A stretch of DNA of 64,000 bases from Aureimonas sp. ME7 (lineage in GTDB: Bacteria > Pseudomonadota > Alphaproteobacteria > Rhizobiales > Rhizobiaceae): the NCBI RefSeq assembly GCF_903970965.1, contig NZ_CAJCKW010000009.1, positions 124,001 through 188,000 of the forward strand, in the 5' to 3' direction. Within the stretch, counting starts at the first letter, position 1; every line of letters starts with the position of its first letter. The notes under the pieces were generated by a model, which saw only the letters and a program-made list of their open reading frames with translations, had not been told where the DNA came from and did no database searches. Shown piece after piece: positions 3,687 to 64,000 of this stretch. The position numbers and the translations under genes were made by a program.

Positions 3687-5735
3687 ATGTCCGAGGCCGT
3701 GATCAACGAAAAGCCGAAGAAGCGCGACGCGGGAGCCCGGAAGGCGGCGGAAGCATCGCTGGAGCGCCTGAACCGTCTAGCCGCCGACCGCGTGGCGATC
3801 GAGGGCGTTTCGCCCGAGATCGACGGCGGGCGCTTCGCGGTGAAGCGGTTCGAGGGCGAGCCGCTGACCGTTTCGGCCGACATCTTTTCCGATGGCCACG
3901 AGATCATCGCCGCCGCGCTCTTGACGAGGGGCGTGGGGGAGGACGGGTGGCGCGAAACGCCTTTCGTGTTCCTGTCGAACGACCGTTGGGGCGTGACCGT
4001 TTCCTTCGACCGCCCCGGCCCCTATCGCTACACGATCATCGCTTGGCGCGACGTGTTCGCCACCTGGGCGAGCGACACGAAGAAGAAGAAGGATGCGGGC
4101 GTCGACATCAAGCTCGAGCTGATCGAGGGCGCGATCCTTCTGGACAAGGCGGCATCCTCGGGGCGCGGCACCCGCGACCAGCAGAAGGAACTCAAGGCGC
4201 TTCGCCAGCGCGTGGAGAAGCTCGCCAAGAAGGGCGACGGCGAGGCGCTCTACGCCGCCTTCGTGGAACCGGAGACCACCGCGCTCCTTCGCGATGTCGG
4301 GGTGCGCGAGGACTTGTCGCGCTACGGCACCGAAGTTCCGGTCTGGGTGGACCGCGAGCGCGCGGCCTTTTCCTCTTGGTACGAGCTGATGCCGCGCTCT
4401 CAATCGGGCGACGTGAAGCGACACGGTACGTTCGACGACGTGATCGCGCGCCTGCCCGACATCCGCGAAATGGGCTTCGACGTCCTGTATTTTCCCCCGA
4501 TCCACCCGATCGGCAAGAGCAATCGCAAGGGGAAGAACAACAGCGTCACCGCGCAGGACGGCGAGCCGGGCAGCCCCTATGCGATCGGATCGCACAAGGG
4601 CGGCCACAAGGATCTTCATCCCGAACTCGGCTCCTTTGCCGACTTCCAGCGCCTCCTGACGCGCGCCGCCGATCATGGGCTGGAGCTCGCGCTCGACTTC
4701 GCGATCCAGTGCTCGCCCGACCACCCCTGGATCAAGCAGCACCCGGACTGGTTCGACTGGCGGCCGGACGGGTCGATCAAATACGCGGAGAATCCGCCGA
4801 AGAAGTATCAGGACATCGTCAATGTCGACTTCTACCGCGAGGGCTCGATCCCGTCGCTGTGGCAGGAACTGCTCGGCACCGTCCTCTTCTGGGTGGACAA
4901 GGGCATCCGCATCTTCCGCGTCGACAACCCGCACACCAAGCCTTTCCCCTTTTGGGAGTGGTTGATCGCCGAGGTCCGGCGGGTGGACGCAGGGGTCGTG
5001 TTCCTGGCCGAAGCGTTCACGCGGCCGAAGCTCATGAAGCGCCTCGCCAAGGTCGGCTACAACCAGAGCTATTCCTACTTCACATGGCGAAACCAGAAGT
5101 GGGAGCTGCGCGAGTACCTGACCGAGTTGACGCAGGAGGAGTGCGCCGAGTTCATGCGGCCGAACTTCTTCGTCAACACGCCCGACATCAACCCGCTCTT
5201 TCTCCACACGAGCGGGCGGCCAGGCTTTCGCATCCGCCTGGCGCTGGCAGCGACCTTGGCGGGCAACTACGGCGTCTATTCCGGCTTCGAGCTTTGCGAG
5301 CACGAGCCGGTTCTCGCCGGCAAGGAAGAGTACAAGGACTCGGAAAAGTACGAGATCCGCGCCTTCGACTGGAAGCGCGAAGGCAATATCCGTGAGGACA
5401 TCGCCTTCTTCAACGAGATCCGTCGTTCGGAGCCCGCCTTTCGCGACTTCCGCAACCTCGAGTTCCTGAACTTCTGGAACGACAACGTCCTCTACTACGC
5501 CAAGCGCACGCCGGACCTGTCGTCGTTCCTCCTGATCATGGTGAGCCTTGATCCGCACAACGCGCAAGGCGGGCATTTCGAGGTGCCGCTCTGGGAGTTC
5601 GACCTGCCCGACGACGCGTCGGTGAAGGTCGAGGATCTCGTCAGCGGGCAGCGGTTCACCTGGGCCGGCAAGATCCAGCATTGGTGGTTCCGCCCGGACG
5701 AGAACCCCTATGCGGTGTTCCGCATTTCCATCTGA
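3687..5735 (+). CDS. glgE: Alpha-1,4-glucan:maltose-1-phosphate maltosyltransferase GlgE
   Basis: GH13_3 enzyme that transfers maltosyl units from alpha-maltose-1-phosphate to the non-reducing end of alpha-1,4-glucan. 682 residues, typical length. An N-terminal Ig-like/DUF3416 region (~20-215) precedes the catalytic barrel. The nucleophile is Asp413 in FRVDNPHTKP, the acid/base is Glu442 in FLAEAFTRP, and the third acid is Asp500 in NTPDINPLF, with spacing like characterised GlgE proteins. An AGGAAG ribosome site precedes ATG 3687. It is followed by maltokinase and branching enzyme, the standard GlgE pathway order. Confidence 0.95.
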   Translation: MSEAVINEKPKKRDAGARKAAEASLERLNRLAADRVAIEGVSPEIDGGRFAVKRFEGEPLTVSADIFSDGHEIIAAALLTRGVGEDGWRETPFVFLSNDRWGVTVSFDRPGPYRYTIIAWRDVFATWASDTKKKKDAGVDIKLELIEGAILLDKAASSGRGTRDQQKELKALRQRVEKLAKKGDGEALYAAFVEPETTALLRDVGVREDLSRYGTEVPVWVDRERAAFSSWYELMPRSQSGDVKRHGTFDDVIARLPDIREMGFDVLYFPPIHPIGKSNRKGKNNSVTAQDGEPGSPYAIGSHKGGHKDLHPELGSFADFQRLLTRAADHGLELALDFAIQCSPDHPWIKQHPDWFDWRPDGSIKYAENPPKKYQDIVNVDFYREGSIPSLWQELLGTVLFWVDKGIRIFRVDNPHTKPFPFWEWLIAEVRRVDAGVVFLAEAFTRPKLMKRLAKVGYNQSYSYFTWRNQKWELREYLTELTQEECAEFMRPNFFVNTPDINPLFLHTSGRPGFRIRLALAATLAGNYGVYSGFELCEHEPVLAGKEEYKDSEKYEIRAFDWKREGNIREDIAFFNEIRRSEPAFRDFRNLEFLNFWNDNVLYYAKRTPDLSSFLLIMVSLDPHNAQGGHFEVPLWEFDLPDDASVKVEDLVSGQRFTWAGKIQHWWFRPDENPYAVFRISI

Positions 5736-5803: not shown

Positions 5804-7276
5804 ATGACCGCATCCCATCCCTCCGGCACCGGTGAGGCCGAAGGCGACCTTCCCTCGGCGGCGCTCGTCGAGTTCGCCAACCGGCAACGCTGGTTTGCCG
5901 GGCGTACGGAACGGATCGAGCGGGCGGAGTTCGCCCCGATCGTCTCGCCCTTCGCTGGCGGACCGGAAATCGGCGAACTTGTGGTCCACATCGAGGGGGG
6001 CGACGAGCAGCGCTACTTCCTGCCGCTGGGAGCGGCGGGCGAGGGCGATGCCGCCTTCGGCTTCGACGCTGGCCCGGCGCGCGGCACGTTGGCGGACGGC
6101 GCGCGCGACGCCGCCTTCGCGGCGCAGGTCATCGGCTGGATCGCTGGCGGCGATGCGACGCGCGGCGCTCTGACGGCCCATCGCAGCCAGGCCGCCGCCG
6201 ACCGTCTGGTGGAGGTCGCCAAGGTGCCGCCATCGGAGATCAAGGTCCTGTCCGGCGAGCAGTCCAACACGTCCGTCGGCATCGGGTCGCTCGGGATCCT
6301 GAAATTCTATCGGCGGCTGCGCGACGGGGAGCAGCCCGAGCTGGAACTTACCGAGTTCCTGACGGAGCGCACCGGTTTCACCGGCGCGCCCGCGCTCTAC
6401 GGCTCGGTGGAACTCCGGCGCGCCGATGGCGCCAGCGCCGCGGTGGCGGCCCTTTTCGAGCGCGTCGCCAACCGGGGCGACGCCTGGAGCGTCGTGACAA
6501 CGGATCTCGTGGCGGTCTTGAGCGGCGGGAGTGCGTCGCCGGAGCGTTTCGACGCCGGTGAAACGCTGGGACGTCGGACGGGCGAGATGCATGCCGCGCT
6601 CGCCACCCGGACCGGCGATCCGGCCTTCGACCCGGAACCGCTCGACGCACCTTCGCTGAAGCGCATCGTGTCGGAAGCGCGAGAGGAGGCGATCGAAGCG
6701 CTCGACATCCTCTCCACCGAGCGCGAGCGCAGCCCCGAACTGCATGGCGAGATCGATGCGCTTCTGGCCGCGCGCATCGCGATCGACGACTGGTTCTCAG
6801 GGTTCGACGGGCTTGCCGGCGGCGGGCACCGGACGCGGATCCACGGCGACTATCATCTCGGCCAGGTTCTCGTGTCCGGCGAGGATGCCGTGATCCTCGA
6901 CTTCGAGGGCGAGCCCGGGCGTCCGCTGGAGGAGCGGCGGGCCAAGACCTCGCCGCTTCGCGACGTCGCGGGGATGCTGCGCTCCTTCGACTACGCCGCC
7001 TTCGCCGCGCGCGACAAGCTGGGGGAGGGCGGCGATGCCGTGCGGGACGCCGCCGACCGGTGGCGCGACGAAGCCAGCGCGACCTTCCTCGCGGCCTGGA
7101 GCCGAGCCAGCGGCGTCGATCTGACGAGCGACGGGAACTCGCGCCTCCTCGATCTCTTCCTGATCCAGAAAGCCTTCTACGAGCTGCGCTACGAGGCGGC
7201 CATGCGGCCCGCCTGGCTGTCCATCCCGCTCCGCGGCATCGTCTCCCTCCTTCGAAAGCGTCAGGTCCTCCGATGA
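5804..7276 (+). CDS. mak: Maltokinase (Mak/Pep2), stand-alone, not fused to TreS
   Basis: ATP-dependent kinase that phosphorylates maltose to maltose-1-phosphate, the GlgE donor. 490 residues from ATG 5804. Family marks are NRQRWFAGR near the N-terminus, a nucleotide-loop region with [10 protein letters not shown], the catalytic [10 protein letters not shown] (~residue 347) and metal-binding ILDFEGEP, then [21 protein letters not shown]. In many bacteria this domain is fused to, or next to, trehalose synthase TreS. Here no TreS sequence lies between glgE and this gene. Its stop overlaps the glgB start (ATGA), so the two are translationally coupled. Confidence 0.9.
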
Positions 7277-9504
7277 GCCAGACTGAAACCACGCCAAGCC
7301 GGACCCTTTCCACGTTCGACCATGCGCTTCACGGCGACGAGGCGCGCGCGCTGAGCGTCGGGCGGCACGAGAACCCGTTCTCGGTTCTTGGACGGCACCG
7401 GGCGGAGGGTGGCTCGGTGATCCGTACCGTGCGTCCCGGCGCCGAGCGGGCCGAGGTGATCGATGCGAAGGGCCAGGTGCTCGGCGAGCTGGAGCCGGGC
7501 GAGGTCGACGGACTGTTCTCCGGCTTCATCGCGGGCGAGCTTCCCGCCTACCGCTTCCGCTTCACCCACGGCTCGGTCACCTGGGAGGAGGAGGACACCT
7601 ACCGCTTCGGCACGATCCTGACCGACTTCGACGCCTATCTCCTGGCCGAAGGCCGGCACTACAAGCTCTACGAGAAGCTCGGCGCGCACCCGGCCGAGAT
7701 CGACGGGGTGAAGGGCGTGACCTTCGCCGTCTGGGCGCCGGACGCGCGCCGCGTGTCGGTGGTCGGCGACTTCAACTCCTGGGACGGCCGACGCCACGTG
7801 ATGCGCAAGCGGCTCGACACCGGCGTCTTCGAGATTTTCGTGCCCTCGCTCGGGCGCGGCGAGGTCTACAAGTACGAGATCATCGGCAAGCACGGCGAGA
7901 TCCTGCCGCTGAAGGCCGACCCCGTCGGCTTCCTTCAGGAACTCGCACCCTCCACCGCTTCGATCGTCGACGGGCTGGTGGAGCACGAGTGGCGGGACGA
8001 CGCCTTTCGCGCCAAGGGGCAGGACTGGCAGGACGCATCGAAACCCGTCTCGATCTACGAGGTGCACCTGGGCTCTTGGAAGCGGGGCGACGGCGACACG
8101 TTCCTCGACTACGACGCGCTGGCAGTAGAACTCACGGCCTATGTGAAGGAGATGGGCTTCACCCATGTCGAGTTCATGCCCGTTTCCGAGCACCCGTTCT
8201 ACGGCTCCTGGGGCTACCAGCCGATCGGCCTCTACGCGCCGACCGCGCGCTACGGCGATCCGGCCGGCTTCGCGCGCCTCGTGGACGCTCTCCATCAGGC
8301 CGATATCGGCGTCCTCCTCGATTGGGTGCCCGGCCATTTCCCGACCGACGTCCACGGTCTCGGCCGCTTCGACGGAACCGCGCTCTACGAGCATGCCGAC
8401 CCGCGCCGGGGCTTCCATAAGGACTGGAACACGCTGATCTACGACTATGGGCGCACCGAGGTGAAGAATTACCTCGTCGCCAACGGCCTCTACTGGCTCG
8501 ACCGCTTCCACATCGACGGGCTGCGCGTCGATGCCGTCGCCTCGATGTTGTATCTCGACTATTCGCGCAATCACGGCGAATGGGAGCCCAACATCTACGG
8601 CGGGCGCGAGAACCTCGAGGCCATGGCCTTCCTGCGCGAGACCAACGAACAGGCGGGCGGCCAGTATCCGAACGCCTCGACCCATGCGGAGGAATCGACC
8701 TCCTTCCCCGACGTGTCGCGCCCGACCTACGCCGGCGGCCTCGGCTTCCACTTCAAGTGGAACATGGGCTGGATGCACGACACGCTGCACTTCATGGCTG
8801 AGGATCCGATCAATCGGAAATACCACCTGCACCATATGACGTTCGGCATGGTCTACGCCTATTCCGAGAACTTCGTCCTGCCGCTGAGCCACGACGAGGT
8901 GGTCTACGGAAAGGGGTCGATCCTCGGCAAGATGCCGGGCGACTGGTGGCAGAAGTTCGCCAACCTGCGCGCCTATTACGGATTCATGTGGACCCACCCG
9001 GGCAAGAAGCTGCTCTTCATGGGCGGGGAGTTCGGGCAGGTCGCGGAATGGAACCACGACCAGTCGCTGGACTGGCACCTCACCGACCAGTCCGAGCACA
9101 AGGGGGTGCAGCGCCTCGTTCGCGATCTCAACACGCTGTATCGCGGCGTTCCCGCGCTCTACGAGAACGACTGCGACCCGCAGGGCTTCGAATGGGTCGA
9201 CACGTCCGACGCCGACCAGTCGATCCTGTCCTTCCTTCGCAAGGACAGGCACGGCGGCGCGGCGCTCGTCGTGTGCAACTTCACGCCCAACGTCCACCAT
9301 GGATACCGGGTCGGCGTGCCGCATGGCGGCTTCTGGGCGGAGGCGCTCAACACGGACGCCGAGATCTACGGCGGCTCCAACGTCGGCAACATGGGCGGCG
9401 TGGAGGCCGAGGAGGTCCATGCCAACGGCCGGCCGTTCTCGCTCTCCCTCAGCCTGCCGCCGCTCGCCACGATCGTTCTCGTGCCGGGCGACCGGCCTGC
9501 CTGA
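7273..9504 (+). CDS. glgB: 1,4-alpha-glucan branching enzyme GlgB
   Basis: Introduces alpha-1,6 branches into glycogen or alpha-glucan. 743 residues. N-terminal CBM48-type modules (~30-220) precede the GH13 barrel. Catalytic residues line up as Asp420 ([10 protein letters not shown]), Glu473 (HAEESTSF) and Asp541 (LSHDEVVYG), with the spacing of E. coli GlgB. The start at 7273 overlaps the mak stop by 4 bases; an open extension further upstream lies inside mak in another frame and was rejected. It ends only 3 bases before the stop of the convergent diguanylate cyclase gene. Confidence 0.95.
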
Positions 9505-56698: not shown

Positions 56699-56767
56699 CG
56701 TCGACACTCCAAGCGTTGTGTTCGGAGCGTTGGAGGGCGATCGGCGGAATGGGGGCCCGCGAAAGCT

Positions 56768-56851
56768 CTCAATCCCTCCGCCGGTACGAGCCGGATCAGG
56801 TTCTGCGGGTTGGCCGAACGCCTCTCAGCCCGAAATGGGCACCCCGTGTGA
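56768..56851 (-). ncRNA. TPP (THI-box) riboswitch
   Basis: On the minus strand the aptamer reads CGGGGTGCCC, GGCTGAGAGG, AACCCG, AGAACCTGATCCGG, TACCGGCGGAGGGA. CTGAGA and ACCTGATC with the closing GCG-AGGGA are the universally conserved TPP-binding parts. It lies 70 bases upstream of thiB and should switch off thiBPQ when TPP is plentiful. Confidence 0.95.
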
Positions 56852-56964
56852 GCAGGCGCATAGTTGCGGCATTCGGCGGCGCTCGGCAAGGGGGAAGGTC
56901 GCCCTCCGCCTTTCCGCCACGGCCTCTTTCCCCGAACGGGGCGGATCGTCTAAGCCCCTTGGCC

Positions 56965-57758: not shown

Positions 57759-58820
57759 TTACTCCTTCGCGTCTTGTTTTGCACCTTGTTTTGCAAAGTC
57801 GGCGTCTAAAACAGCCTCGAATTTCGCGATGGCGTTGTCGGCCATCGTGCTTGTGCGGGCGAGGTAGCGGTCCAAGATCTCCTGCGCTCGGCGCAGAGAG
57901 TGTCCCGTCACGGCAACAATCTCACCGAGATTGCAGCCGGCCTGAAAAAGCATGGTGACTGTCGTTCCACGAATGTCGTGGAAATGCAGATCCGCGATCT
58001 TGGCCGCCGTGCAGGTCTCTTCCCATTTCTCCGCGAAATAGCGCTTTTTGAACTGCCGGCCCGTCTTAGTCGTCAGGATCAAGGTCGAGCTGCGCGGCAG
58101 GTCGTCGAGCGTGGCCTTGAGAGCCGCCGTTGCCTTCACCGTCACGAACCGTCGCGTCTTGCCTTGTCGCAAACGAATATGCGTCCCATCGTATGCGTCC
58201 CACTTCAACGCCAGAAGATCTCCCTGCCGCTGGCCGGTGTGGAGCGCCAGCACGAGCCCGAGCTTCATTTCTGGCGTTGCCTTCTCCATGAACGCATCAA
58301 CGTGCTCGGGCAGCCAGATCATCTCCGAGCGATCGGACGAATAGGCGCGGTCAAAGCTGTCAAGCACATTCGCCTTCAGGTCGCCGTCCTTCGTGGCCCA
58401 TGACAAGACGCGGGCGAGGATCGTGACGCGGTTGTCGGCCTCGCGCGGCTTCTCCTCCGAGAACTCGTCGTGCCACTTCAGCACCTCGCGGCGGAACGCC
58501 TTGTCCTCCAGCGCAGGAAAAGGCACCTTGCCGTAGTCGTTTTCCCAGAACTTCAGGACGCGCTTATATTCGCTCTTCGTGCTGGCGGCGAGCTTTCGCC
58601 ATTTTGCGGTCTTCTCGAAGTCTCGGATGATGCCAGACAGCGTGCCTGCGGTTCGCGTCTCTACCTTGGCCTGGGCCTTCGCCATGGAGGCGAGGAACAG
58701 GGCGGTGCCCGGCTCCCCTTCCAGTCTCGTGCCCGTTGCCCGGTGGTAGTAGTAGGTCACTTGTTCCCCGCTTGCGAGCTTGGCCTTGACCCTATTGATG
58801 CCTTTGAGGCGCGCGTGCAT
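57759..58820 (-). CDS. int: Tyrosine-type phage integrase
   Basis: 353 residues from ATG 58820. An N-terminal arm-binding region and SAM-like core-binding domain (~60-180) precede the catalytic domain. R-H-R-H-Y residues are seen: Arg in HTGQRQGDLLALKW, His-x-x-Arg in FHDIRGTT, His in VTGHSLR and Tyr in ILDRYLAR. Its stop is 10 bases from the tRNA 3' end, as for tRNA-targeting integrases. The start overlaps the AlpA-like gene. Confidence 0.93.
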   Translation of the reverse strand: MHARLKGINRVKAKLASGEQVTYYYHRATGTRLEGEPGTALFLASMAKAQAKVETRTAGTLSGIIRDFEKTAKWRKLAASTKSEYKRVLKFWENDYGKVPFPALEDKAFRREVLKWHDEFSEEKPREADNRVTILARVLSWATKDGDLKANVLDSFDRAYSSDRSEMIWLPEHVDAFMEKATPEMKLGLVLALHTGQRQGDLLALKWDAYDGTHIRLRQGKTRRFVTVKATAALKATLDDLPRSSTLILTTKTGRQFKKRYFAEKWEETCTAAKIADLHFHDIRGTTVTMLFQAGCNLGEIVAVTGHSLRRAQEILDRYLARTSTMADNAIAKFEAVLDADFAKQGAKQDAKE

Positions 58821-59043
58821 TCTGCTTCTTCCATGCCTCGAAGGGCGACAGGGCTTCGTCCTCGTTGGCTGCACTGGGGGCAACGCCGGACATCGCCCGC
58901 TCTAGCGCCGCTCGGCTCCATCGCCGCGTGCCAGAGATCGATGCGGGCGCCACGCCCTTCCGCACCCATTTGTCGAAGGTGGACGTGCTGATACCGAGAA
59001 GGTCAGCGGCTTCCTGACGTGTGAGGATCAGCGGGCTACCCAT
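58792..59043 (-). CDS. AlpA/excisionase-like helix-turn-helix protein
   Basis: 83 residues. An N-terminal MerR-like HTH, LTRQEAADLLGISTSTFDKWVRKGVAPA, typical of AlpA or excisionase proteins. Overlaps the integrase start by 29 bases. Likely directs excision or regulates int. Confidence 0.82.
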   Translation of the reverse strand: MGSPLILTRQEAADLLGISTSTFDKWVRKGVAPASISGTRRWSRAALERAMSGVAPSAANEDEALSPFEAWKKQNARAPQRHQ

Positions 59044-59232: not shown

Positions 59233-59466
59233 TGCGGATGCCGATGGGAACCGATCGCCGCGCTCTACGAGCAACGCAAGGTCAGCCATGTCGGCGACTT
59301 CCCCGACCTCGAGGACCAGATGTGCAACTTTACGCCGTCGGGTTTCATCGGAGAGGGCTCTCCCGACCGTGCCGACGCGCTGGTCTGGGCACTGACTGAG
59401 CTGATGCTCTCGACTGAACCCCAGCCCGGCAAAGCCAAGACAACGACCACGATGGGCGCATACTGA
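59233..59466 (+). pseudogene. Terminase large subunit, C-terminal remnant
   Basis: The frame reads EPIAALYEQRKVSHVGDF, LEDQMCNF and GSPDRADALVWALTELM, the conserved C-terminal end of the large terminase (nuclease domain end), then stops at TGA 59464. An in-frame stop at 59230 and the leftward genes replace the missing ATPase and most of the nuclease domain. The stop overlaps the portal ATG (TGATG), so the original gene junction is preserved. Confidence 0.8.
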
Positions 59467-60521
59467 TGGCCGTTGATACCCGTCACCCCGACTACACCGA
59501 CCGAGCCGAGGAATGGCGGGAGATGCGTGCCACTAGCCGCGGTGCGAAGGCGGTGAAGGAGGATGGCGAAGAGTTCCTGCCGATGCCGTCGGGCTTCCGC
59601 GCACAGACGGACGGCGGCAATCGCATGTATGCCGCCTACCAGAAGCGGGCTCAGTTCCCGGAGATCGTCGGGCCGACCATCCGCGGCATGATCGGCGTCA
59701 TTCATCGCACCGAAGCGCAGATCGACATGCCCGACGCCATGCAGGGGCTTTGGGAGCGAGCGACGGCTGACGGTCTGGCGCTTGAGGCGTTCCACCGACG
59801 CATCACGTCCGAACTGCTTCTGACGGGCCGCTACTCGATCCTGGCCGATGCGAAGTCGGAGGGCTCCGAGCTTCCCTACCTCGCCGGCTACTCGGCTGAG
59901 GCGTTGATCAACTGGTCGCCGGATCGCGACTTCTACGTGCTCGACGAAAGCGGTCTGGTTCGGTTCGACTTCGAATGGCGTCAAGAGAAGCGGTATCGCG
60001 TTCTGCAGCTTGTGGAGGGGCGCTACGAGGTCGAGCGCTACACAGGCACGGAGAAAGACGGCGACACTCTGCAGCCGGCCGCGCAGGGCAACAGGGCGTT
60101 GGTCCAGAAGGACACCTTCATCAGCAAGCTTCTGGTCGACGACGGCCTGACGAAGGCGCTGATCGAAGCCGGCGTCGGCAAGGAGTACCTGAAGGCTGCG
60201 AAGGCTATGCTGAAAGACTCGGTCAAGATCCTTCACGAGGACGGCACCTATCGCGCAGTAGTCGAAACCGACATGGGCGAGGACGACGTTGGAAAGTTCG
60301 TCCAGAACTGGTCGCAGTCCGATGAGGGGAAGGTGTTCATTTCCAAACCCACCGGCGGCGACGCGAAGGGCGGCGACGGCCAGCGCTTCGGCGACAACCC
60401 GTTCGACACGAAGGGCGGCACCGTGAAGCCGAACCTGACCAAAGCCCAGGAACTGATCGCGTCAAACCCCGAGAAGGCCCGCCAGATGGCGAAGGCCGTG
60501 GGGCACGCAGTCACCTGGTAA
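59466..60521 (+). CDS. In-frame fusion: portal (DUF4055-type) N-terminus and capsid scaffold C-terminus
   Basis: 351 residues. Residues 1-~205 resemble portal proteins: HPDYTDRAEEWREMR, EEFLPMPSGF, MYAAYQKRAQFPEIVGPTIRGMIGVIHR, and AEALINW. Residues ~210-351 resemble phage scaffold proteins: LTKALIEAGVGKEYLKAAKAML, FVQNWSQSDEGKVFISKP, a Gly-rich spacer and NLTKAQELIASNPEKARQMAKA. Portals are usually over 400 residues, so the C-terminal half of the portal, any head-morphogenesis gene and the scaffold start are missing. Junction near 60080-60100. Confidence 0.75.
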   Translation: MAVDTRHPDYTDRAEEWREMRATSRGAKAVKEDGEEFLPMPSGFRAQTDGGNRMYAAYQKRAQFPEIVGPTIRGMIGVIHRTEAQIDMPDAMQGLWERATADGLALEAFHRRITSELLLTGRYSILADAKSEGSELPYLAGYSAEALINWSPDRDFYVLDESGLVRFDFEWRQEKRYRVLQLVEGRYEVERYTGTEKDGDTLQPAAQGNRALVQKDTFISKLLVDDGLTKALIEAGVGKEYLKAAKAMLKDSVKILHEDGTYRAVVETDMGEDDVGKFVQNWSQSDEGKVFISKPTGGDAKGGDGQRFGDNPFDTKGGTVKPNLTKAQELIASNPEKARQMAKAVGHAVTW

Positions 60522-60566
60522 TCGCATTCCGGCGTCAGTGACGCTTCCGCCTACGCAGGCCTCGCC

Positions 60567-60604
60567 CAGTGGGGTGGCCGAACCGAAACCCTTTCACCCC
60601 ACTG
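60567..60604 (+). repeat. Inverted repeat before the coat gene
   Basis: CAGTGGGGTG and CACCCCACTG, a perfect 10-bp inverted repeat with an 18-base loop, ends 19 bases before the coat ATG and just upstream of its AGGAG ribosome site. It may act as a mRNA hairpin tuning coat expression or protecting a processed end. Confidence 0.5.
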
Positions 60605-60623
60605 ATCGACAGGAGCCATTCCT

Positions 60624-61472
60624 ATGGCCACCACCCGCCTGCAGGACGTCATCTACGGCCCGCTGTTCCTGCCCACCACGATCCAGCGCATCGCCCAGCT
60701 TTCGCGCCTGCGCAACTCGCCGATCGTCTCCGCTGATCCCGAGATCCAGCGCTTTGCCAACGGTCCGGGCGACATCGTCCAGATGCCGTTCTGGAACGAC
60801 CTGACCGGCGCCTCGAACGTCTCGTCGGACGACCCGGCTCAGGCCGCCGTTCCGAACAAACTGACCCAAGGCCAGGACATGGCCCGCAAGGTCCGCCGGA
60901 ACAACGGCTGGCAGTCTGCCAACCTCGTCGCGGCCGTGCTCGCGGAGGATCCGCTCGACGTCGTCGCCCAGCTCATTGCCGAATACTGGGTGCGGGACGA
61001 AGAGACCGTCCTCGGCCAGGTCATCAACGGCGTGTTCGCGTCGTCCGGCATGGCTGGCAACAAGCTCGACGTCGCGTCGGAAGCGGGCGCGACTACGCCC
61101 GTCAAGCTCGACCCCGAGGTGGCCGCCAACGCCTATGCGCTGTTGGGCGAGTACGGCCATGCCTTCACGCCGATCGCTGGAAGCGTTCGCCTGACAATCC
61201 TCGACGGGGAGGGGCGACAAGCTTCGGTCGGCACTCCTGGCGGCAATGTGGTCCGCTACGCTGGCGTCATCGCCATTCAGGTGTTCACCGAAGGCGGGAA
61301 GGGCACTGCGGCCAGTCGCGAGCTAGAGGACGCTCTGTCCGATCTGTTCCGCAACGCCGAGATCGATTCAATCCGGTGCGGCATTCCCTACGTCTCCGGC
61401 AGTGTCGAGGACCCGCCCTTCCTTATGCAGACGGTCATGGTGCCGTTCACGCGGGACAGCTTTCACGCCTGA
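60624..61472 (+). CDS. In-frame fusion: major capsid N-terminus and tail-terminator C-terminus
   Basis: 282 residues. Residues 1-~182 look like a P22-coat-like major capsid protein (TRLQDVIYGPLFLPTTIQRI, MPFWNDLTGASNVSS, ARKVRRNNGWQSANLVAAV, VLGQVINGVFASSG). Residues ~185-282 look like a DUF4128-type tail terminator (VRLTILDGEGRQASVG, RYAGVIAIQVFTEGGKGT, DALSDLFRNAEID, QTVMVPFTRD). The capsid C-terminal third and head-tail connector genes are absent. Junction near 61165-61190. A GACAGGAG site precedes ATG 60624. Confidence 0.72.
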   Translation: MATTRLQDVIYGPLFLPTTIQRIAQLSRLRNSPIVSADPEIQRFANGPGDIVQMPFWNDLTGASNVSSDDPAQAAVPNKLTQGQDMARKVRRNNGWQSANLVAAVLAEDPLDVVAQLIAEYWVRDEETVLGQVINGVFASSGMAGNKLDVASEAGATTPVKLDPEVAANAYALLGEYGHAFTPIAGSVRLTILDGEGRQASVGTPGGNVVRYAGVIAIQVFTEGGKGTAASRELEDALSDLFRNAEIDSIRCGIPYVSGSVEDPPFLMQTVMVPFTRDSFHA

Positions 61473-61596
61473 CGATGTGTCCCACGTTCCCCGCACGGTT
61501 TTTGGCGAGAGGCGGCAAGGCTCAAAAATGGGATTGTCGGGCCAGCCGCTGACCCCGCCGCCTCTCACCAAAACCCACCCCGACGCAACCCACCCC

Positions 61597-61621
61597 GGCT
61601 CGCCATTCGGCGGGCCTTTTT
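61597..61621 (+). terminator. Terminator-like hairpin before the tail tube gene
   Basis: GGCTCGCC/GGCGGGCC stem (one G-T pair), 4-base loop and five T residues, ending just before the tail-tube ribosome site. It could reduce tail expression relative to head genes. Confidence 0.6.
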
Positions 61622-61634
61622 CATGGAGCAAACC

Positions 61635-62612
61635 ATGCCCACCACTGGCATCCGCGCCGGGGCGAACTCTTCCGACACCCGCCTTGCGATCGTGAAGGAA
61701 ACGGCCTGGGCCGTCGTCCCCGCCAACCCCGCATTCCAAGCGCTGCGTTTCACGTCCGAAAACCTCCAGCCCGCCAAGGAAACAACCCGCTCCGGCGAAA
61801 TCCGCCCCGATCGCAACGTCGTGGACGAGATCCTGACCGGCCGCTCGGTCGCCGGCCCGATCGGGTTCGAGCTTTCCTACGGCGCATTGGATATGCTGCT
61901 GGAAAGCCTCTTCTTCTCCGAGTGGGGCGGTACTGGCTCCAACACGATCAAGAACGGCGCTGGTCTCGGCCAATCGTTCACCGCAGAGCGCACGCTGCGC
62001 CTGCCCGGCGGCACGTCGCACTACACCCGGTTCAACGGCCTCGTCGTAAACTCTCTGTCGCTCGACATCACAGCCGGTGCGCTCGTCACCGGCTCCATGG
62101 ACGTCATGGGCAAGTTCGGCGGCGCAGGGACGACGGCCATCGCCGGTGCGACCTACGCCGACGCTCCGCAGAACCGCGTCATCAACGCGGCCACGCACTT
62201 CGCCGGCCTGACGATTGCAGGCGTCGCCGAGGCACCGATCGTGCGTTCGATCAGTCTCAACATCACCAACAACCTGCGAGCCCAGCGCGCCGTCGGCGAT
62301 CTCGACAACATCGGCATGGGCCTCGGTCAGTTCGAAGTGACGGGCTCCGTCGAAGCCTACTTCAAGAGCGGCTCCCTTCTCGACGCCTTCCTCGCGCACA
62401 CCGATCTCGGCCTGCAGTTCGCGCTCGGGACGGAGGCGGGCAAGAAGTACCAGTTCTCGGTTCCGACCGCCGTTCCGACCGGCTCGCCCGGCGGCAATGC
62501 CAACGGCAACGACGACGACATGATGCAGACGTTCGACTTTACGGGCGTTCTGGATCGCACGTCGGGCACGCCCATCGGCGCCACCATCCAGATCGTTCGC
62601 GGAGTGTCCTGA
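61635..62612 (+). CDS. Phage tail tube protein
   Basis: 325 residues. N-terminus TGIRAGANSSDTRLAIVKETAWAVVPA with LRFTSENLQPAKETTRSGEI, a typical start for siphovirus tail tube proteins (Phage_tube_2 type). GGAG 7 bases before ATG 61635 favours it over ATG 61623. Appears intact, in contrast to the head genes. Confidence 0.83.
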   Translation: MPTTGIRAGANSSDTRLAIVKETAWAVVPANPAFQALRFTSENLQPAKETTRSGEIRPDRNVVDEILTGRSVAGPIGFELSYGALDMLLESLFFSEWGGTGSNTIKNGAGLGQSFTAERTLRLPGGTSHYTRFNGLVVNSLSLDITAGALVTGSMDVMGKFGGAGTTAIAGATYADAPQNRVINAATHFAGLTIAGVAEAPIVRSISLNITNNLRAQRAVGDLDNIGMGLGQFEVTGSVEAYFKSGSLLDAFLAHTDLGLQFALGTEAGKKYQFSVPTAVPTGSPGGNANGNDDDMMQTFDFTGVLDRTSGTPIGATIQIVRGVS

Positions 62613-62614
62613 CC

Positions 62615-62800
62615 ATGCGTGTCGAGATCATCGAAGGCTTCGAGGTCGATACCGCCAGCGGTCCCGTCCGCTACGAGCGCGGCCAGGTCGTCGGCAACGG
62701 TCAGAAGAACTGGGTCGACAAGGGTCTTGCCGTCGAGGCGGCCGACGAAGCGCCCAAGACCAAGCCCGAACCGGAATCGGCCGAGAAGCCGAAGGGCTGA
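62615..62800 (+). CDS. Small acidic phage protein
   Basis: 61 residues, begins 2 bases after the tail-tube stop. VDTASGPVRYERGQVV and NWVDKGLAVEA resemble small phage structural accessory proteins; the C-terminus is Lys/Glu/Pro-rich. No function assigned. Confidence 0.6.
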   Translation: MRVEIIEGFEVDTASGPVRYERGQVVGNGQKNWVDKGLAVEAADEAPKTKPEPESAEKPKG

Positions 62801-62884
62801 CCGGCTGACACGCGCCGGCGGTTCTGTCGGGGGCTGCCGGCGCACCCACCCACCCCGACCCACCCGACATCAAGGAAACCCGAC

Positions 62885-63328
62885 ATGCAGATCGACGGCT
62901 ATGTGAAGCCCGACAAGGAAATCGCCCTCCACCAGGGCGTCAGCTTCGAGTACCCGACTAAGTACGGCGACGTTCATATCACGGCACGGCTGGCCGGCCG
63001 CGACAACGTGAAGTGGCGCCTCGCGATGAAGGTGCACAACGAGTACCTCGAGCGCCGCAAGAACCTCGACAGCCTCGACGACAAGGAATCGGAACGCCGA
63101 TTCCTCGGGATCGTCTACGAGAACCTCGTCATCGACTGGTCCACCACGATCAAGTCCGACGGCGCCGAGATCGAGGCGACGAAGGAGAACTTCGTGGAGC
63201 TCATGTCGAACCCGGCGACGTCGAACGTCCTCTCGGTGTTCCTGCGGGACGCTTCGGACGAGACCCACTTCCGGCCGCTCTCCGACGAGGAAATGGAGGG
63301 AAACTCGCTCAAGCCGTCCGATGGGTGA
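62885..63328 (+). CDS. Tail assembly chaperone, G-like product
   Basis: 147 residues. No enzyme motif; position after the tail tube, acidic C-terminus and a slippery heptamer near the 3' end match lambda gpG. Reading in the zero frame ends at TGA 63326. Slippage at 63298-63304 yields a longer ~252-residue product with the next frame. Confidence 0.7.
   Translation: MQIDGYVKPDKEIALHQGVSFEYPTKYGDVHITARLAGRDNVKWRLAMKVHNEYLERRKNLDSLDDKESERRFLGIVYENLVIDWSTTIKSDGAEIEATKENFVELMSNPATSNVLSVFLRDASDETHFRPLSDEEMEGNSLKPSDG
63298..63304 (+). other. Programmed -1 frameshift site GGGAAAC
   Basis: The heptamer lies exactly in X XXY YYZ register (GAG GGA AAC), seven codons before the stop. After a -1 slip the ribosome reads LAQAVRWVIEWGDK, joining the downstream frame without a stop. 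Lambda G/GT uses GGGAAAG at the same place. Confidence 0.8.
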
Positions 63329-63642
63329 TCGAATGGGGCGATAAGGTCGAGTGGCTTCGGGAGATGGTGCCCGACAGTCCCCACCTTGCTTCCCAACCCG
63401 ACATCGGGCCGCTGGAAGAGTTCATCTGGTCGATGTTCTGGAGCCTCCATGCGGGGCGCCAGATCGGCATGAGCGGCTATCAGGCGATCCCCGTGGTCGA
63501 GGTCATGGCGTACTGCGCCCTGGCCGGCATCACGGATGCTTCGGAGCGAATGCTGCTCCTCCGGCTCATGCAGGTGATGGATCGCGAGATGCTCGCCGTG
63601 CTGGCGAAGAAGGCCGATAAAGACCGGAAGCGGGGGAAGTGA
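63325..63642 (+). CDS. T-domain of the tail assembly chaperone (reached by frameshift)
   Basis: 105 residues if translated alone from GTG 63325 (GTGA overlap with the upstream stop); more likely made mainly as the C-terminal part of the frameshift product. A small helical protein (LEEFIWSMFWSLHAGRQIG, EVMAYCALAGI) with a Lys/Arg-rich end. Lambda gpT-like in position and frame. Confidence 0.7.
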   Translation: MIEWGDKVEWLREMVPDSPHLASQPDIGPLEEFIWSMFWSLHAGRQIGMSGYQAIPVVEVMAYCALAGITDASERMLLLRLMQVMDREMLAVLAKKADKDRKRGK

Positions 63643-63720
63643 TCCGCTTCCGGCAACGCAGGCGATCAATCCGGCGATGTTCGATGCCCTTTTCGGGTAG
63701 GTCAGAAACGACACGCCGAC

Positions 63721-63790
63721 CCAAATTGCATGAATACGCATGAAACACGACGAAACGTACCGAAACGATACGGAATGGACAGAAACAGCG
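63721..63790 (+). repeat. Seven helically phased 10-bp units (NGAAAC-like)
   Basis: From 63721 the sequence divides into seven 10-base units, the last six centred on GAAAC, GAATA or GGAAT at exact 10-base spacing (GAAAC at 63742, 63752, 63762, 63782). The last two units contain the -35 of the next promoter. Likely an activator or repressor array, or intrinsically bent DNA. Confidence 0.6.
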
Positions 63791-63804
63791 TGTAGCCATA
63801 TATC
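63776..63804 (+). promoter_or_regulatory. Internal sigma-70-like promoter in the prophage
   Basis: TGGACA (63776-63781), 17 bases, TATATC (63799-63804). The -35 matches the consensus at 5 of 6 positions and the -10 at 4 of 6. Start of transcription is expected near 63811, about 40 bases before the last gene. Confidence 0.55.
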
Positions 63805-63811
63805 CGCAACG

Positions 63812-63828
63812 GCGGACATGTTGTCCGC
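63812..63828. promoter_or_regulatory. Palindromic operator candidate at the transcription start
   Basis: GCGGACA-TGT-TGTCCGC, a perfect 7-bp inverted repeat with a 3-base centre. It covers the predicted +1 of the 63776-63804 promoter, the classic place for a repressor site. Confidence 0.6.
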
Positions 63829-63849
63829 TCAACGGAACGAGCAAGCACG

Positions 63850-64000
63850 ATGAATAGGATGCTTTCCAGCTTCGTCGCCAGCCTCGGCACCCTTGCGTCG
63901 CTGTGGCCCGCGACGACACCGCATAGATACCCGCACGAGTCCGAAATGGACGCCCTGCGGACCGATGTCGTGAAGGTTGGGGCTGATCTCAGCCGCACCA
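63850..64000 (+). CDS. Small phage protein, 3' end outside window
   Basis: At least 50 residues (MNRMLSSFVASLGTLASLWPA...), open to the window edge. GGAACGAG lies 8 bases before ATG 63850. Short proteins of this kind are common between tail chaperones and the tape measure gene in related prophages. The preceding 63643-63849 gap holds the array, promoter and palindrome. Confidence 0.55.
   Translation, partial: MNRMLSSFVASLGTLASLWPATTPHRYPHESEMDALRTDVVKVGADLSRT

Follow-up and report, generated by a model that had tools for sequence, protein, structure and literature searches.

A phased decamer array precedes a two-gene moron between the tail chaperone and tape measure genes of a decayed Aureimonas prophage

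Why helically phased repeats, a promoter and a palindrome should lie together in the middle of a phage tail operon is the question raised by one 207-bp gap (63643-63849) in the genome of Aureimonas sp. ME7. The DNA analysed, hereafter the window, is a 64-kb stretch corresponding to positions 124001-188000 of contig C9 in the 4.38-Mb host assembly; positions past its end are given as window-equivalent. At its right end, beside a tRNA-Arg gene, lies a prophage that encodes an integrase, a portal, proteins of the capsid and the tail, and a tail chaperone whose gene is extended in the -1 frame. The prophage is decayed, and no immunity region was recognised in it. DNA similarity searches with positions 59400-63999 against phages, and with the gap itself against plasmids, returned no match. 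The features are collected in Table 1. Inspection by eye of the ORFs scanned between integrase and portal, a subset of those present, revealed neither terminase nor immunity genes.

Table 1 Features of the window that bear on the moron control region and its surroundings (window coordinates).
Feature	Position	Strand	Remarks
TPP riboswitch (Rfam RF00059)	56755-56856	-	upstream of a periplasmic-binding-protein-like gene, thiamine type by eye
HTH_17/excisionase-like gene	58792-59043	-	beside integrase
ORF resembling an in-frame deletion fusion	59466-60521		portal N-terminus + scaffold C-terminus
ORF resembling an in-frame deletion fusion	60624-61472		major head protein + tail terminator
Tail assembly chaperone gene	62885-63328	+	-1-frame extension to 63642; left border of moron insert
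Slippery heptamer GGGAAAC	63298-63304		in frame (G GGA AAC)
RAAY-N6 array	63743-63786	+	five consecutive units exactly 10 bp apart: 63743 AAAC, 63753 AAAC, 63763 AAAC, 63773 GAAT, 63783 AAAC
Candidate core promoter	63776-63804	+	TGGACA (63776-63781), 17-bp spacer, TATATC (63799-63804)
7-3-7 palindrome GCGGACA-TGT-TGTCCGC	63812-63828	.	near expected transcript start
First moron gene, 62-aa protein	63850-64000, on to window-equivalent 64038	+	38 bases past the window

The late-gene setting assumed by the original prediction was confirmed, with the tail chaperone gene upstream and the tape measure gene downstream of the gap. Read directly from the sequence, the slippery heptamer joins the chaperone ORF to its -1-frame extension, an arrangement known from lambda gpG/gpGT-type chaperones. 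Between the end of this extension and the start of the tape measure gene (Pfam TMP_3; window-equivalent 65432) lie the 62-aa ORF, an overlapping DUF2335 gene and two minus-strand ORFs, one TM2-domain and one signal-peptide-like by eye. The insert separates genes that are adjacent in relatives, as a moron does, and the gp15 moron of phage HK97 occupies the same gap. After the module, no terminator-like plus-strand site is listed (locus L002, positions 6000-7900), the opposing ORFs come next, and a terminator of its own, another hallmark of morons, was not found there.

The small gene expected after the promoter is present as the 62-aa ORF, whose product carries a D..(V/I)GxD motif and matches phrog_26284 (E 8e-4). 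Its overlapping partner encodes a member of DUF2335, a predicted membrane protein family, and matches phrog_3996, category moron. PADLOC returned no match for the four proteins of the insert. The cassette may serve superinfection exclusion, as suggested by where it lies, by the membrane-protein family of its second product and by the phrog assignment to morons. The suggestion that the promoter might drive the distal tail genes separately was not supported and we reject it, as the promoter faces the two-gene moron and the opposing ORFs intervene before the tape measure gene. A control region before a small gene inside the tail operon is supported; such layered control had been called unusual, which applies to the phased array, whereas a moron in this slot is already known from HK97.

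We show that the phased array is real and beyond what chance produces. Seven GAAAC-like units had been proposed, and their 10-bp register holds, although the count was generous: exact GAAAC recurs in register at 63742, 63752, 63762 and 63782, weaker units stand at 63772 (GGAAT), 63732 (GAATA) and 63722 (CAAAT), and at 63732 the GAAT falls out of the RAAY register by a single base, leaving the first two units weak or out of register. A common 5-mer in at least four of five units, at any period from 6 to 15, was found once in the window, at the array itself, and in none of 3000 dinucleotide shuffles of the gap; when 40 copies of the window were generated by an order-2 Markov model, the same criterion gave no match at periods 9-11. 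Likewise, the array is the sole RAAY run of three or more units (periods 9-11) in the window, and runs of at least four at period 10 were absent from 60 simulations of the window. The simulation named beforehand as a possible refutation thus did not reproduce the periodicity, in shuffles or in simulated windows.

Chance periodicity in AT-richer intergenic DNA, the simplest alternative, draws on the base composition of the gap (54% GC vs 67% for the window) and on promoter and palindrome scores that fall in or near the shuffle range. These simulations, together with an aligned array in a second prophage described below, refute it for the array, and as an account of the region it is scarcely credible, although it still stands for the promoter score taken alone. 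The hexamers match the consensus at 9 of 12 positions; shuffling the 130 nt ahead of the start codon gives that score in 226 of 2000 cases, and the pair does not appear in the output of a stricter promoter scan. Hence, of the "good" -35/-10 pair originally described, the hexamers and their 17-bp spacing are present, but the adjective was too strong. The perfect 7-3-7 palindrome is exactly as predicted and modestly unusual: when the 60 nt preceding the start codon were shuffled 3000 times, 56 of the products had an arm of at least seven.

The closest relative of the module is informative. Relatives were sought with DUF2335 in 394 genomes of the family, and with the 62-aa protein in 397 genomes of the order and in viral contigs. 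DUF2335 was matched in 13 of the 394 genomes, own genome included, with genome G137 closest. For the 62-aa protein, the own genome was the sole match among the 397; a single-sequence search of the viral contigs gave no match, and the single confirmed relative there corresponds in place to the G137 prophage. In the G137 module (locus L030), the small protein is 82% and the DUF2335 protein 68% identical to its counterpart. Upstream lies an array of its own with five RAAY-N6 units (six when read as GAA-N7). Across 60 kb of the G137 contig, no other RAAY run reaches three units at periods 9-11, and 60 simulations of that stretch gave no run of four or more at period 10. Its promoter, TCGACA-17-TATATG, also scores 9/12 (reached by 102 of 2000 shuffles), and the last array unit stops just upstream of the -35 hexamer.

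In a MAFFT alignment of the two upstream regions, five units coincide and the window has one extra unit downstream. The AA steps are identical in 10/10 columns and the R/Y class is the same in 10/10 (identical in 4), while the spacer is identical in only 10/31. The Fisher value (p = 1.6e-4) is post hoc and describes rather than tests this difference, because the RAAY motif was defined after both sequences had been seen. AA pairs kept at 10-bp steps, between spacers of which few bases are kept, form a footprint-like pattern that speaks for a protein binding cooperatively. Unusually clean as it is, this footprint comes from two independent loci. In both prophages the module has tail tube/chaperone-type genes on one side and the tape measure gene on the other; the tape measures differ in Pfam family (TMP_3 in the window, TMP_2 in G137), indicating the same cassette in the same slot of two different tail lineages. 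No 7-3-7 palindrome precedes the G137 gene; the one near the expected start site in the window is probably an additional operator, of a kind that varies among phages. An operator for a phage CI repressor was set aside as the identity of the array, there being no second array near the CI-like gene or elsewhere in the 60 kb of the G137 contig.

The relative also bears on intrinsic bending, by which phased A tracts would aid the promoter without any bound protein. In a wedge model, curvature of the window array is high (reached by 66 of 2000 shuffles), but that of the G137 array is not raised (1660 of 2000), so that bending is not the conserved property. We therefore rejected bending as the function of the array; with A tracts only two or three long, this explanation is very improbable.

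In the host assembly, GAAACN5GAAACN5GAAAC occurs once (reversed control 0), as does (GAA-N7)x4 (reversed control 1). Allowing one mismatch, (GAAA-N6)x3 gave 10 rows, four from this array and six elsewhere, against two for the reversed control; four of the six lie inside ORFs of at least 90 aa. These searches, which bear on the suggestion that the region may respond to a host regulator, revealed no second array of this length, and with once-only matches we reject a common host element; the proposed search of the host genome for the decamers thus yielded only the shorter near-matches. Across the family, (GAA-N7)x5 was matched in 14/394 genomes vs 9/394 for the reversed control, the host genome itself not being among them. 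Several matches are simple repeats or lie inside ORFs, and near-control frequency together with these features led us to discard a family-wide host signal. Shorter runs are less telling: a RAAY run of three at period 10 occurs beyond the window (L002, position 18801) and once each in the genomes of phages BUCT711 and RAH1, so that a run of three alone carries little weight.

Viral contigs were scanned for (GAA-N7)x6, GAA being the single triplet used. Among the matches listed, phased GAA decamers lie near terminase-like ORFs (by eye) in at least two overlapping protein clusters of six loci each (L076, L082, L087, L100, L103, L147, L152 and L160), possible packaging sites with one-turn repeats. 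At least 13 arrays at no fewer than 10 loci of one protein cluster (among the matches listed, L054, L057, L072, L079, L106, L131, L132, L135, L140 and L150) lie in or at replication-like ORFs (by eye), iteron-like and in coding DNA. As a separate observation, at L182 (position 1501) a GAAA-type decamer array directly precedes a DeoR-family regulator gene (by eye). Such occurrences near terminase-like and replication-like ORFs give some footing to the idea that our array is left over from another phage site with phased repeats, for instance one for packaging (pac/cos) or replication, that travelled with the cassette. Yet no recognised terminase or replication gene lies near the array of the window or of G137, and both arrays stand directly before the first gene of the moron, at a promoter, which makes a relic very unlikely.

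We also surveyed DUF2335 modules more widely. Among 57 loci with a DUF2335 match, a small gene could be located before it in 46 (43 distinct upstream sequences); the survey was defined without L204 and L255, counterparts of the G137 prophage, and without the weak matches L036-L042. The array is present only in the window and G137, that is, the proposed search of related prophages for the decamers succeeded in one relative and found none in the other 44 of the 46 modules. The 11 loci with no accepted small upstream ORF have no RAAY run of three (period 10) in the preceding 500 bp. The two module ORFs overlap or abut in 41 of the 43 loci with geometry given, overlaps possibly being overstated as each ORF start is the first possible one. 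Aligning 26 of the small proteins showed four nearly invariant residues, namely the start M, D39, G44 and D46. Two more remote relatives of the 62-aa protein, one encoded by Pseudomonas phage MD8 (31%) and one by a Devosia plasmid (38%; outside the 46-module count), lack the array upstream. The module stands shortly before the tape measure gene, or a long ORF in its place, in RAH1 and in viral contigs L212, L214 and L215. Overall, the array is real, lineage-specific and probably regulatory; it stands before an element of a familiar kind and has been preserved in the single close relative identified.

Further DUF2335 loci deserve mention in their own right. At L239, four GAC decamers at 10-bp spacing precede another DUF2335 module (3 of 300 shuffles, with 46 loci tested), and a RAAY run of three lies on the opposite strand; neither was counted as an array. 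At L240 and L248, DUF2335 modules lie amid genes resembling a gene-transfer-agent tail cluster (by eye).

The Klebsiella phage BUCT711 offers a parallel for the position of the palindrome. Just after the -10 hexamer of its module (by eye), near the start site, stands TTACCN5GGTAA, of which the 38-kb genome holds nine exact copies, two directly before an HTH (repressor-type) regulator gene; an element shared with the immunity region is expected of a repressor operator. The copies (locus L189) lie at 4210, 4272, 6402, 6419, 7124, 7187, 16965, 17377 and 34570, as dispersed operators. With the same palindrome at the module and before the HTH gene, at least one phage appears to place its DUF2335 moron under an operator of its own repressor, roughly where the window has its palindrome.

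Taken together, we consider it reasonably probable that the gap is an independently regulated moron promoter, and the array a platform for a protein that binds once per helix turn. The gap would then be the control region of a two-gene moron inserted between tail chaperone and tape measure in a decayed prophage, with its own sigma70-like promoter allowing the moron to be expressed from an otherwise silent prophage. A small DNA-binding protein could assemble head to tail on the five RAAY-N6 units, one protomer per helix turn, the protomers lying on one face of the DNA and covering the spacer and the -35 region. Of the units in the window, one touches the -35 hexamer and another lies inside the spacer, for which reason occupancy would most likely repress the promoter; activation from upstream is also possible, since the G137 array stops just short of the -35 hexamer. 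As the prophage is decayed, its control region may have fallen out of use.

An activator or UP-element-like platform, whose AA steps would increase expression in the lysogen by recruiting a response regulator or the alpha subunit of the polymerase, is accordingly a tentative alternative that we regard as unlikely. Response regulators of the OmpR type use tandem sites, and here sites on one face reach upstream of the -35 hexamer, with the last G137 unit just short of it, and the units vary while AA is invariant. However, the window units at the -35 hexamer and in the spacer fit a repressor better, and no host regulator is linked to the array, most of the host near-matches being ORF-internal and the reversed control producing matches as well.

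As for what might bind such a moron promoter, the HTH_17/excisionase-like protein, the sole small DNA-binding protein among the scanned proteins of the prophage, is a candidate. That a dedicated new regulator reads RAAY-N6 arrays and makes a defence-type moron answer to a signal from the host or the cassette seems rather improbable; such a regulator could be the small protein of the moron itself, making the module self-regulating. The alphaproteobacterial LexA box, a GAAC or GTTC direct repeat with an 11-bp period, does not fit: the array has period 10, and the window contains no RAAY run of three at period 11.

Switching of morons has, to our knowledge, been little studied, and an array before a two-gene phage module, placed where HK97 carries its gene for superinfection exclusion, is concrete bait for finding its binding protein. 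Searches of the open-access literature found nothing on phased 10-bp direct repeats with prophage promoters, nothing that looked related on DUF2335 and phage, and nothing for DeoR-type, terminase-repeat or two-gene exclusion queries. Judged from these searches, the phased array appears to be new, while a moron in the tape-measure slot is already known.

Among known regulatory systems, the array is closest, by description, to the operators of phage 186 Apl and of Cox/Xis-type recombination directionality factors (RDFs), in which several one-turn direct repeats overlap a promoter. In the accessible part of one report, Apl-type factors recognise direct repeats spaced by one turn of the helix, with binding detected only when three or more operators are present, and Apl represses the promoters it overlaps (PMC7498355). 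The five RAAY units at 10-bp steps contain the three or more one-turn direct repeats that mark RDF operators. Unlike these, the attachment and integrase region here has no matching array: no RAAY run of three was found there, and the only isolated RAAY pairs, two in number, share a strand, against about 0.4 expected per strand. We do not claim membership of the array in this operator class.

Among known morons, that of HK97 (NC_002167) is similar in that gp15 is a small moron between the -1-frameshift tail gene and the tape-measure gene. It is a predicted inner membrane protein according to the available portion of its description (PMC10883804), and it acts as a superinfection exclusion moron; the DUF2335 protein, likewise of a predicted membrane family, is set alongside it by slot rather than by protein comparison. 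In contrast to HK97, the insert here comprises two overlapping genes and two opposing ORFs before the tape measure, and HK97 positions 6300-8700 contain no RAAY run of three at periods 9-11. The Tab moron of Pseudomonas phage JBD26 lies in the late genes, has its own promoter and is expressed from the prophage, as stated in the part of the report available (PMC10884400), but it sits between terminase genes and is a different protein. From the accessible part of its description, the two-gene exclusion system of Fc02 appears to consist of other genes. Finally, the modules of Klebsiella phages RAH1 and BUCT711, Escherichia phage EC.W1-9 and Pseudomonas phage MD8 share the same order of small gene and DUF2335 gene with overlapping ORFs, and differ from the module described here in having no phased array upstream.
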